Of a stretch of DNA of 64,000 nt, positions 1 to 4,466 are shown piece after piece. Each line of letters starts with the position of its first letter. Positions within the stretch are counted from its first letter, which is position 1. The position numbers and the translations under genes were made by a program. Origin of the DNA: Bacteroidia bacterium (GTDB lineage Bacteria > Bacteroidota > Bacteroidia > CAILMK01 > JBBDIG01); contig JBBDIG010000034.1 of the NCBI GenBank assembly GCA_040880525.1, positions 1 to 64,000 on the forward strand, given 5' to 3'. A model generated the notes under the pieces. The model saw only the letters and a list, made by a program, of their open reading frames with translations, was not told where the DNA came from and searched no databases.

Positions 1-141
1 CTCTTTAACATGGAGCAAAAATAACATATTGCTACCTAAGCGCCTATACCTATTATTTAATACTAGCAACAAGCACTATTTATACCTTCAGGCTTTTAAT
101 TCTCCTTTGATTAAGCTCCGTCAGTTCCATCCCCTTCAATA

Positions 142-218
142 ATGTAGATCGCAAGAGCTTTGTGTGCCCGGAATGGATTCACCGGGAGTGGCGCTCCTGG
201 GCGCCGCAGGCATTCCGC
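142..218. repeat. Degraded copy of the ~135-base palindromic repeat
   Basis: This stretch contains the junction seen in the better copy at 2161-2317: GTAGATCGCA, then AGAGCTTTGTGTGCC, then GATTCACCGG and GCAGGCATTCCGCT. Relative to that copy it lacks the middle hairpins (the CGGATT-GCA-AATCCG and CGCAGTT-G-AACTGCG parts) and has several substitutions. Confidence 0.6.
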
Positions 219-240
219 TATTAAACTACCTACCTAACCT

Positions 241-269: not shown

Positions 270-560
270 AAATCGCTCCACTAATTATTAAACTGCTAAG
301 GATATCAAAACCTCTGGAAGGTTGGACAAAAAACTTCAATTGTTAAACTATCTTTGACATCTTTCAGGGCAGGTACAGCCTTTTACAGAGGCGAACGTTT
401 TTTCTGCCCTAAGAAGCAATCCGTGGCTTTAACCAGGCGGATCCCTAAAAAGGAGTGGGTGCCAAACGTAGTGGGTTGCTTTTTCACAAACCCACCACGT
501 CCCGCTGTTTTTTAATCGGAATATCTTACTTGATAACCAGCCAAGCAATTTGCCTGGAAT

Positions 561-672
561 GGCAGTGGCGATCTTGGACACCGCAGGCATTCCGCTGGCG
601 CGGAATATTCGGATTGCAAATCCGAGTTACATGTAGCTCGCAGTTGAACTGCGATTAGTCCGCAAGGGCTTT
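561..672. repeat. Interspersed palindromic repeat, copy A
   Basis: This 112-base stretch matches 2169-2280 with only four differences counted by eye. It contains three small hairpins in order: ATTCCGC/GCGGAAT with a 4-base loop, CGGATT/AATCCG with a 3-base loop, and CGCAGTT/AACTGCG with a 1-base centre. Two near-identical copies about 1.6 kb apart flank the methyltransferase gene, in the same orientation. Confidence 0.85.
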
Positions 673-874
673 AGCAACAACCGTATATTTAATCCTTCCT
701 CGCAGAAAAAATATCCTTTTGGAGATGACGGATCATCTTGACCCTCTTCCGGGCATTGTAATCTGCTGTCAGCATCCTCGGGAAAAGGGTCGGCACCGGA
801 ATATGCATCATTGTATAATCGTGATCCAGTTTGTGACTTTCAAATTGCAGAAACATCATCCTGAATATTTCAGC

Positions 875-882
875 TAAATTTG
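875..882 (+). promoter_or_regulatory. Candidate Bacteroidota -7 box for the methyltransferase
   Basis: TAAATTTG matches the Bacteroidota -7 consensus TAnnTTTG and ends 42 bases before the ATG at 925. No clear -33 element was found at the expected spacing, so this is a suggestion only. Confidence 0.35.
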
Positions 883-924
883 TAGGCGCAAGTACTTTTT
901 ACACTATAACTAAAAATCGAAAAC

Positions 925-1689
925 ATGCCCAATAAACTGGAGAAATTAAAAAGTCTAGGGAAAGGCCTTTTACATAAATTTGTTGAACAGCAGTTCCACT
1001 TTCGTCCCTATTTAAAGCCTCTTAGTATTAGAGATCTAAATGCTGTTTTCTATTACGGCACCCCTCAAGCCTCAGAATGGTATGACCCAATTAAGCCTTA
1101 TGCCTTGTTGGAGTATAATTGGGTATTAGAAAACATCGAGCTAAAAAATAAGAAGATAATTGATGGCGGTTGCCATCATGGGCAGTATTCTGTAGTCCTA
1201 GCCAAAGGTTCAGGTAACACGGCTGAATTAGTGGCCGTGGATCCATTTCCGATGAACTGTCTTTTGACAAACATCAATCGTTGTTTAAATGACTTAAACT
1301 TTAAAATTCTTGAGAAAGCAATTAGCGAGAAGGAAACCACACTTTTTTTCTCAGATCAATCAAACGGACATTTAACATCGAATGGAAAGCTTAAAGTGGA
1401 ATCGACCACTTTGTATAATATAATGCCTGATGCTGAGATAATCAAGCTCGATGTGGAAGGTGAGGAATTTAAAATAATTCCAAATGACATTGAAAGAATG
1501 TCGAAAGTTACGACATGGATAGTTGAGGTTCATCCATCTAATCAGCGCATTCCAGATGACCTTATAAAAGTATTTCTAAATAATAATTATGAAATCTTTT
1601 GGATTAATAGAGAGAATAATCAAGTAGAAAAATACAACCTGAATTCAGAATGGAGGTCACATAGTACTGTCTTTTGTTTAAAGAGGTAA
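925..1689 (+). CDS. FkbM-family SAM-dependent methyltransferase
   Basis: The 254-residue product has the two hallmarks of the FkbM family. A glycine-rich SAM-binding motif sits near residues 79-86 (IDGGCHHGQYS, of the D-x-G-x-x-x-G type), and the family block IIKLDVEGEEF lies near residue 173. There is no signal peptide or membrane segment, so it is probably cytosolic. FkbM enzymes O-methylate sugars or polyketides and are common in polysaccharide loci, but no glycan cluster surrounds this gene, so the substrate is unknown. The gene is clearly more AT-rich than the genes from 2.5 kb onward, stands alone, and is flanked by copies of the same palindromic repeat. Together these suggest acquisition by transfer (inference). 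Confidence 0.8.
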   Translation: MPNKLEKLKSLGKGLLHKFVEQQFHFRPYLKPLSIRDLNAVFYYGTPQASEWYDPIKPYALLEYNWVLENIELKNKKIIDGGCHHGQYSVVLAKGSGNTAELVAVDPFPMNCLLTNINRCLNDLNFKILEKAISEKETTLFFSDQSNGHLTSNGKLKVESTTLYNIMPDAEIIKLDVEGEEFKIIPNDIERMSKVTTWIVEVHPSNQRIPDDLIKVFLNNNYEIFWINRENNQVEKYNLNSEWRSHSTVFCLKR

Positions 1690-2160
1690 ATGCTGAAAAC
1701 TATGCAAAAGGAATCAGTGAACGGGTCTGTAATCTGCACTCTGTCCTGCTTAAATTTTAGTTCCTGCCGGGCACCAAGTTAAATTTATAATTGCTGCACG
1801 GTCAATGCCAGATGGCAAAATACGACCTCTGAATGGATATAAACTCAATAGCCAGACCTAGTTACGAAAATAAATTCAATCTCTTCATGAGGTAATAAGA
1901 GGCGATACTTTTTATGGCGGGACCCGTGCTGAGAATTCCGGAAATGGGAGCACGAGGTATGATCATAAGAAACTATCGCTGTTATCTATTTATTCAATTC
2001 CCGAATATTTCATTTGATTCCTCATCCCGTTTGCTGAAAAACCCTGGAATAACAGTGATGGATAGTGTTGAAACATCAGGTATTATGTAACCAGAAGGTT
2101 ATTGAGTTCTATTACAGCTATCCACTCGCATACACGCCTTACGAAATCTTCAGGTAGGTA
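1690..2160. other. Intergenic region without a recognisable gene
   Basis: This stretch separates the methyltransferase from the second repeat copy. I see no sustained reading frame with protein-like composition and no RNA gene. It may contain decayed coding sequence, but nothing identifies it. Confidence 0.5.
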
Positions 2161-2317
2161 GATTCACCGGCAGTGGCGATCTTGGACACCGCAGGCATTC
2201 CGCTACTGCGGAATATTCGGATTGCAAATCCGAGTTACATGTAGATCGCAGTTGAACTGCGATTAGTCCGCAAGGGCTTTGTGTGCCTGGAGTAGATTCA
2301 CCGGCAGTGGCGATCTT
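2161..2317. repeat. Interspersed palindromic repeat, copy B with partial tandem unit
   Basis: The unit runs from GATTCACCGGCAGTGGCG through three small hairpins to GCTTTGTGTGCCTGGAGTA, about 135 bases. The first 22 bases of the unit then start again at 2296. Bases 2169-2280 match copy A at 561-672 with four differences. The tandem start shows that the natural element is a head-to-tail array or was copied from one. The 65-codon frame on the minus strand here is only a reading of the repeat. Confidence 0.85.
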
Positions 2318-2980: not shown

Positions 2981-4192
2981 TCACTTCCCCCTGACGTCCA
3001 GCGCGTCCTGCAATCCGTTGCCCACAAGGTAAAACGCCAGTACGGTAAGGCAAATAAAAATGCCGGGCAGCACGGCCAGGTACGCATTGCCAAAAACGAT
3101 CATCATGTAATTTTCTTTGATCATGTAGCCCCATGACGGAACGGGCGGCTGCACGCCTATTCCCAGGAAACTCAATCCAGCTTCCAACAGTATAGCCGCT
3201 GCGAAATTGGCCGCGCATACCACAATGAGGGGGCCTGTAATATTGGGCAACAAATGACGGGTGATGGTGCGGAAGCTCCCGTAGCCCAATGCACGCGCGG
3301 CCTCTACAAATTCCTTTTCTCTGGTGCTCATGATCTGGCCCCGGACGATGCGCGCTACTTCCACCCACATACTTACGCCCACGGCCACGAATACCTGCCA
3401 GAATCCCTTTCCCAATGCCAGGCTGAATGCGATGACCAGCAACAATGTGGGAAGAGACCACCATACATTTATGAACCACATTACTACATCATCAGCAAAA
3501 CCGCGGAAGTAGCCTCCGATGGTGCCGAGCGTAATCCCAATTACAAGAGAGATGAGCACTGCTATAAAGCCCACTGACAGCGACACGCGGATGCCTAGCA
3601 GAAGGCGGCTGAACAGGTCCCGCCCAAAAGAATCAGTACCCAGCAGAAAATGACGCTTTTCCAGGTTATTCTCTTCCACCAGGTTCGCCAGTTCCTGCAA
3701 TTCGATTTGCTGCTGGCCGCCAACTGCATCCTCAAAATAAACTGTGTTATCCTCGCTCCGCACCGATTCCAGATCAAGGGCAAAATGAATGTCTGCGAGA
3801 AGGTAATGCTCAGTGGGACCTTTTTCCCCTTCCCAGCCAGTAACTCTTGTAATGCGCAGAGAATCTTTTACGAACTCATATTCAGCAACAGGAATAAAAT
3901 TATAAGGACTTTCCCGGCCCTCCAGCATAGCGCTGAGAAAGGAGGTCTCAGGAAGTTGCAGATTTTTGCGTTTTTTCAGGATAAGCGCCTGGGTTCCCGG
4001 TGGCTGCGTCTTTAGCTCAATAATCTGCGCATTTGCATCCGGAGACGGATCCGGGAGGATCAGGTAACCTGGAATAGCAATAAGCGTGAGGAGCAAAATA
4101 TAGCTGAGGCCCACCACCGCCAACCGGTTCTTCAGGAACCTCTTGCGGGTGTGCCAGGCAGGGGAGCGGCCTTGCTCATGTTCAGTCTTCAT
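2981..4192 (-). CDS. OppC/DppC-type ABC transporter permease with long periplasmic insert
   Basis: The 403-residue membrane protein has the binding-protein-dependent transport permease domain from about residue 180. The entry motif LLGTDSFGRDLFSRLL precedes the inner-membrane core, and the ATPase-contact EAA-like loop appears as EFVEAARALGYGS. These features match peptide permeases of the OppC/DppC class. Between the first membrane helix (residues 24-47) and the core lies a charged, presumably periplasmic insert of about 130 residues, longer than in enterobacterial OppC. No OppB-type partner, ATPase or binding protein is in the window. Its ATG overlaps the end of the upstream small gene by 11 bases, making it the last gene of the operon that starts at 6710. 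Substrate unknown; a peptide or oligopeptide is the family expectation. Confidence 0.85.
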   Translation of the reverse strand: MKTEHEQGRSPAWHTRKRFLKNRLAVVGLSYILLLTLIAIPGYLILPDPSPDANAQIIELKTQPPGTQALILKKRKNLQLPETSFLSAMLEGRESPYNFIPVAEYEFVKDSLRITRVTGWEGEKGPTEHYLLADIHFALDLESVRSEDNTVYFEDAVGGQQQIELQELANLVEENNLEKRHFLLGTDSFGRDLFSRLLLGIRVSLSVGFIAVLISLVIGITLGTIGGYFRGFADDVVMWFINVWWSLPTLLLVIAFSLALGKGFWQVFVAVGVSMWVEVARIVRGQIMSTREKEFVEAARALGYGSFRTITRHLLPNITGPLIVVCAANFAAAILLEAGLSFLGIGVQPPVPSWGYMIKENYMMIVFGNAYLAVLPGIFICLTVLAFYLVGNGLQDALDVRGK

Positions 4193-4466
4193 CCTCCTGA
4201 ACGGAGTTATGCGCTACAAGGCCATCGCGCGTGATGAGATAATGGTAAGCATACATATTGTCTGCATCATAAATAAACGAGCGTTTAAAATCCCTGTCTG
4301 TTTCACTATACTTCATCGCCACCACCAGTTTATTATCAATCAGCAGTCGCAGACTATCTGCCACCTGGTTTTTCGGAGCATCCACCTCGTCCAGAATATT
4401 TTCAAAAGGCTCTACAAAATAGAGCACGTTCAAAATATCATATTCAAGTCCGGTAAGTTTCTTCAT
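4182..4466 (-). CDS. Small conserved-looking protein of unknown function
   Basis: This 94-residue soluble protein has no signal peptide and mixed alpha-beta composition. Its first 60 residues alternate short helices around LEYDILNVLYFV and QVADSLRLLIDNKLVV, followed by a strand-like segment. That pattern would suit a small winged-helix fold, but I do not recognise the family. Its ATG overlaps the stop of the glycosyltransferase gene (ATGA) and its own end overlaps the permease start by 11 bases. Such tight coupling on both sides argues that it is genuinely translated and works with its operon partners. The acidic C-terminus (SVQEDED) is encoded in the overlap. Confidence 0.65.
   Translation of the reverse strand: MKKLTGLEYDILNVLYFVEPFENILDEVDAPKNQVADSLRLLIDNKLVVAMKYSETDRDFKRSFIYDADNMYAYHYLITRDGLVAHNSVQEDED

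Follow-up and report, generated by a model that had tools for sequence, protein, structure and literature searches.

Putative REPIN repeats on either side of an FkbM-family methyltransferase gene in a Bacteroidia genome

Results

The window, the 64,000-nucleotide stretch of DNA analysed here, starts at base 1 of contig C34 in a genome of 3.80 Mb and 60 contigs, so the repeat locus adjoins an assembly edge. Two copies of a 112-nt element, A (561–672) and B (2169–2280), lie in direct orientation around an FkbM-family methyltransferase gene. They are identical at 108 of 112 positions (96%), which confirms the four differences counted in an earlier note on this sequence. We read the locus as follows.

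143..220, plus strand: copy C, one degraded REPIN unit with a TGTAG foot at 143 and its outer stems lost (from the sequence and an alignment of 150–220)
551..631, minus strand: u0, right part of a putative REPIN unit; spacer with a 9-nt deletion, then an L-type REP (minus strand) with core GTAACTCGGATTTGCAATCCGA at 609–630
632..672, plus strand: u1 left piece, unit positions 1–41; R-type REP, GTAGCTCGCAGTTGAACTGCGA at 633–654, and second hairpin
673..2157, no strand: 1,485-nt segment between the repeats, putative insert into u1 with breakpoints at unit positions 41 and 53
925..1689, plus strand: FkbM-family methyltransferase gene, 254 aa, 35.7% G+C (Pfam, TIGR01444)
2158..2239, minus strand: u1 right piece, unit positions 53–134; L-type REP core at 2217–2238 on the minus strand
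2240..2317, plus strand: u2, left part of the next unit; R-type REP core at 2241–2262, spacer cut at unit position 78

Copy B begins to repeat itself, as had been noticed, with a period of 134 (2158–2183 equals 2292–2317 at 26 of 26 bases), and its full extent is 2158–2317. The 134-nt reference unit was built from B, so B fits it perfectly by construction and the edges of B are the ends of its self-identity. Allowing for 9 nt missing from the spacer, similarity at copy A starts at 551. The degraded third copy is also real: 150–220 aligns with 71 nt of the unit (positions 30–100), downstream of the foot at 143, and by eye its right foot is possibly ACTACC at 225–230. The hairpins described in the earlier note are present, not as three per copy but as four per unit when read from the sequence. 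DNA folding of copy B beats 200 of 200 shuffles (z –3.9) and that of copy A 197 of 200 (z –2.5), and the folding of copy C is unexceptional (z –0.9, with 37 of 200 shuffles equally good). A structured RNA known to Rfam was rejected (0 matches at gathering score in the window), as was a link to tRNA (0 tRNA genes). Two other elements lie near the contig edge. Positions 1–52 are the end of an IS-like element (...GCCTATACCTA) whose body is cut off by the edge; this end is common to 11 contig edges (C34, C5, C59, C51, C40, C23, C53, C48, C42, C13 and C2), beyond which the flanks are unrelated. Positions 236–268 hold a separate palindrome, AACCTTTCAAGGGTT ttg AACCCTTGAAGGGTT, with matches at C37:97795–97834 and C37:21756–21790.

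Each unit consists of an L arm and an R arm. An arm comprises a foot, a stem of 7–9 bp closed by a 3-nt loop, and another short hairpin. In the window the L arms (minus strand; 609–630 and 2217–2238) meet the R arms (plus strand; 633–654 and 2241–2262) foot to foot, GTTACA running directly into TGTAG; the R arms have GTAG feet and the L arms the variant GTAA. Single REPIN units elsewhere in the genome run from TGTAG or TGTAA to CTACA over 104–137 bases. Seven places were tried, and such units were found at five (TGTAG...CTACA at C9, C57, C24 and 3' of the C37 transposase gene described below; TGTAA...CTACA at C22). At the other two, the C37-3kb unit escaped the pattern by ending in CTACC, and the match at C23 started outside the element. 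Because the other copies end at their own feet, A and B are foot-to-foot junctions between tandem units rather than whole units, and the 112-base block was rejected as the mobile unit. By its sequence the repeat is a REPIN/BIME, that is, two inverted REPs forming one unit, each with a GTAG/GTAA foot and two hairpins.

The repeat is not confined to this site. The pattern GTANNTCGNNNTTGNANNNCGA has 13 exact matches in 3.8 Mb against 0 for the reversed control, and four of these fall no more than 1 kb from the C37 transposase gene, although the pattern was derived jointly from the window and C37 copies and is partly circular for C37. A covariance model, built from 11 of the REPs that it then retrieved, gives 32 REP matches (E up to 0.04) on 12 contigs, with 150 of 1599 candidates scored: 7 on C33, 6 on C37, 4 on C34, 3 on C30, 2 each on C16, C28, C9 and C57, and 1 each on C32, C24, C23 and C22. 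These numbers are lower bounds, since the C30 and C9 arrays lie less than 300 bases from contig edges and the window starts at one. The copies are both dispersed and in arrays, and a GT[AG]G foot stands beside the stem-loop, as in REPs. Near-identical REPs are limited to the four in A and B. The next closest are at C16 (83% over 58 nt) and C37 (about 78–83% over 30–51 nt). A REPIN subfamily with GTAGGTCCGAT stems is found at L045 2050–3100 (C33), L046 1–273 (C30), L047 (C9) and L048 (C57); its copies on C30 and C9 sit at contig edges, and on C33 its units alternate with repeated coding fragments (...ISPATGQLSIYNRCGETIWKGENEGWDGT...) that resemble a secretion C-terminal domain.

The palindromic stem is kept by compensatory change. 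In an alignment of 34 matches (29 distinct rows), which was fitted to the model and thus favours structure, 70 cells have changed on both sides of a pair compared with a shuffled mean of 26.0, and 0 of 500 shuffles are as high. Stem cells are paired in 90.8% of cases versus 69.4% after shuffling, and slid controls reach at most 60%. Two of the five measures did not clearly exceed the shuffles: the number of pairs with two-sided change (7; 390 of 500 shuffles as high) and the number of further pair types (18; 50 of 500 as high).

There are eight Y1_Tnp matches in the genome, and the one on C37 (L010:1207–1818, 203 aa) is a REP-associated tyrosine transposase (RAYT), scoring 88.7 bits with NCBIfam NF047646 REP_Tyr_transpos at a cut-off of 80. 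It aligns to the structure of E. coli TnpArep (PDB 4er8, 1.1e-5) across the HUH motif NHVH, WQ together with the histidine and arginine that come after it, and the tyrosine motif YVLNNP, and its gene is open and motif-complete. Upstream lie two apparently fused REPIN units (L010 about 1005–1191, by eye) and downstream one unit at 1814–1923, whose GTAG foot provides the stop codon. The RAYT is thus flanked by REPINs of the same kind as those in the window, with about 78–83% identity to the window copies over the aligned stretches. For two 22-mers taken from the window only, seven scores of at least 17/22 occur at the C37 RAYT locus compared to a mean of 0.02 in 300 base shuffles, the scores covering both 22-mers and both strands so that one place may count twice or more. 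No score of 16 or above occurs at the seven loci of the other Y1_Tnp matches. The C37 RAYT very probably serves the window REPIN family in trans, although its recognition of the window REPs is not certain because the nearest copies, on C16 and C37, are only that similar to them.

Several smaller features accompany the Y1_Tnp genes. A REP-like stem, TCGGAATTGAATTCCG, lies inside the C37 RAYT open reading frame at L010:1342–1357. The 3' end of an apparent SNF2-type helicase gene (by eye) seems to be repeated around a REPIN, at L006 1350–1750 and L010 1924–2300 (C37). C48 (L008/L009) and C29 (L013/L014) each hold two equal-scoring Y1_Tnp matches, and different GTAG-footed hairpins lie near L007 (C19) and near L013/L014.

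A MITE of an ordinary DDE transposon, or an IS200/IS605 relict, would also be inverted-symmetric over 104–137 bases, and an IS-like end does lie at window 1–52. This origin was already disfavoured by the GTAG foot and hairpin architecture, the stem covariation and the RAYT flanked by the same kind of unit, and the C37 protein scores 22.8 bits where the IS200 family model needs 55. We consider it very improbable, and regard the REPIN/RAYT identity of the window repeats as highly probable. The suggestion in the earlier note of a REP-like, non-autonomous mobile family is borne out by the GTAG-footed hairpins, the inverted pairs, the dispersed and arrayed copies and the RAYT flanked by REPINs of this kind. 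Of the two conditions under which that note would have dropped the mobile-element reading, neither applies: related repeats lie at other places in the genome, and the methyltransferase gene is not core in the genomes searched.

The gene between A and B was rightly singled out for its unusual composition (35.7% G+C versus 45.3% for the window), and its product belongs to the FkbM family by both Pfam (2.2e-8) and TIGR01444 (7.9e-14). It is not a core gene in the genomes searched: at E ≤ 1e-5 there are no relatives in 11 same-order genomes and one weak relative (2.3e-7) among all 59 related genomes, and at E ≤ 1e-20 none in 295 other genomes of the phylum. Viral contigs gave 14 pattern matches and 0 relatives, and a PDB search gave no match at E ≤ 0.01. 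Of 34 OppC loci examined with tblastn (E ≤ 1e-4), several with short downstream flanks, none had FkbM or TonB_C next to OppC; the 34 were taken from 83, leaving out 49 that by title belong to other phyla, and part of the OppC set is the best 80 of at least 588 loci. A GT2 gene and the small gene at 4182–4466 adjoin OppC in three same-order genomes. Because its relatives are sparse and it is absent beside OppC at the 34 loci, we conclude from these comparisons that the FkbM gene is accessory and probably acquired. We also rejected the idea that the copies enclose a relict of the C37 RAYT, with no remnant in 1–2470 (best tblastn E 1.6). The segment has no second copy in its own genome save a 27-nt match at C3 (40 of 54 candidates scored).

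Discussion

The breakpoints of the two copies adjoin in phase. On the 134-nt unit, A spans positions 45 to 134 and then 1 to 41, and B spans 53 to 134 and then 1 to 78, so that A stops at position 41 and B begins at 53. Joined, 632–672 and 2158–2239 therefore give one unit that lacks 11 nt. The simplest history, to which we give close to an even chance, is that a single tandem array of u0, u1 and u2 was opened in the spacer of u1 by the 1,485-nt FkbM segment. The splitting of one array would explain why A and B are both junctions, point in the same direction and are so alike. Against it, about 17% of phases (roughly 23 of 134, by our own arithmetic) would let the breakpoints adjoin by chance. 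The spacer may also be break-prone or a common breakpoint, as A by itself comes close to a full unit in circular permutation (45 to 41). By eye we see neither terminal repeats nor a target duplication at 672/673 and 2157/2158. Recombination-driven insertion, one option in the earlier note, agrees with the breakpoint phase, but no genome near enough to display an empty site was found. The nearest genomes are of the same order only, and the OppC-based locus set included in this comparison may lack the records closest to the genome of the window.

It is a substantial possibility, somewhat under even, that REPINs came to lie on either side of a pre-existing FkbM gene in two separate events, or in one event plus a duplication. 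REPINs in the intergenic spaces around a gene can be unrelated to it, and such REPs lie at several other places in this genome. The older copy C shows a region struck more than once, and most REPINs are single in the cited part of PMC3116915. Independent arrivals do not readily account for A and B sharing the same foot-to-foot junction type, direction, 96% identity and adjoining phases, and C9, C57, C24, C22 and C37-3' each have a single unit bounded by its feet.

The geometry at C37, where a REPIN array, a gene and a REPIN follow each other, could also be read into the window. A REPIN–FkbM–REPIN cassette would then move as one, with the low-G+C accessory FkbM gene in the REPtron place of the RAYT, driven by the C37 RAYT in trans. 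The segment's single genomic copy, apart from the 27-nt match, and the lack of a C37 RAYT remnant in 1–2470 make this improbable. The broader proposition that REPINs with a RAYT in trans can pick up and move a cargo gene, as a REPtron-like cassette with a methyltransferase replacing the transposase gene, is likewise improbable. Gene capture between the copies, which the earlier note had raised, is not supported by any second cassette in the genome, and no relative is near enough to display an empty site. Nothing links the repeats to the arrival of the FkbM gene.

Returning to the split array, we propose the following course of events. The REPIN family was very probably mobilized or amplified in trans by the C37 RAYT, which, by analogy with what has been published for E. 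coli TnpAREP on single-stranded REP DNA, would cut and move REPINs. The foot-to-foot units u0, u1 and u2 would once have made one array, and the 1,485-base segment with the probably acquired FkbM gene would then have split u1 within its spacer, with the gene as a passenger. At most, the hairpins beside it may form transcript ends of the ordinary REP type, and the FkbM gene could be lost by deletion at the 112-base direct repeats. Our overall confidence in this explanation is roughly 85%, with the split array within it at close to an even chance.

The window repeats fit the published REPIN/RAYT picture and are an ordinary instance of it. In the cited parts of PMC3116915 and PMC3733652, the REPINs/BIMEs of Pseudomonas and Escherichia likewise have two inverted REPs with GTAG feet outward (the HH dimers of PMC3733652), occur as dispersed singles and as tandem clusters with flanking DNA, and have a RAYT beside one cluster; PMC3116915 there describes REPINs as REP doublets, mostly single and sometimes in ordered tandem clusters, and three RAYTs each with a different cluster beside it. 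Unlike these, the family described here has two-hairpin arms, units of 104–137 nt, foot-to-foot tandem junctions in the window, a host that judging by its best OppC matches belongs to the Bacteroidota, and a low copy number, the 32 REP matches on 12 contigs being fewer than the more than 100 copies per genome that are usual for REPs according to the abstract of PMC2817692. The GTAG foot, the stem-loop and the dimers with feet outward are also those of the GTAG REP superfamily as far as PMC3733652 is cited here; that part of the survey places GTAG repeats in Proteobacteria, Cyanobacteria, Chloroflexi and the PVC group and lists Bacteroidetes with CGTC repeats only, in contrast to the present family. 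GTAG recognition by TnpAREP is treated in the part of PMC8266576 that we cite.

The C37 RAYT resembles the REPtron of TnpAREP subclass 2.4 (= RAYT group 4), which according to the relevant portion of PMC6006769 is abundant in Cyanobacteria and Bacteroidetes and has canonical long and double-foot REPs as well as REPs inside the RAYT gene. Of the subclass motifs given there (NH[IFV]H, WQ and YIxNNP), NHVH and WQ are present, the REPs are GT[AG]G-footed, and a REP-like stem lies within the gene (L010:1342–1357). The tyrosine motif YVLNNP differs from YIxNNP by one residue, and the in-gene stem precedes the HUH motif, whereas in that portion of PMC6006769 insertions generally lie between HuH and Y. 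The locus itself leaves the general view unchanged. What it contributes, in a genome probably of the Bacteroidota, is a clearly bounded GTAG REPIN family whose arms have two hairpins and whose REPINs flank a RAYT. Should the FkbM segment really have opened the array, it would be reasonable to treat REPIN arrays as places where accessory genes land.

A DNA search of 60 genomes with the repeat matched only its own genome at E ≤ 0.001, and a covariance-model search of the same 60 gave one further match, in G004 (8.2e-5); relatives may be under-counted in the latter because it used stricter filters and scored only 104 candidates in nearly every genome. Clear flanking REP pairs accompany just one of four RAYT relatives of other genomes, and in the three weaker relatives they are not clear. 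Around the genes of the four RAYT relatives elsewhere, GTAG/GTAA-footed hairpins number seven at L160, one at L161, none at L162 and one at L163. In G010, a genome of the same order, the RAYT is 53% identical and has GTAG/GTAA-footed hairpins with 8-bp stems on both sides. G004, also of the same order, carries at L058 1490–1560 a short REP pair of the same layout, TGTAGGACCGAATTTCATTCGGTC ... GTCCGATTGCAAATCGGACCTACA.
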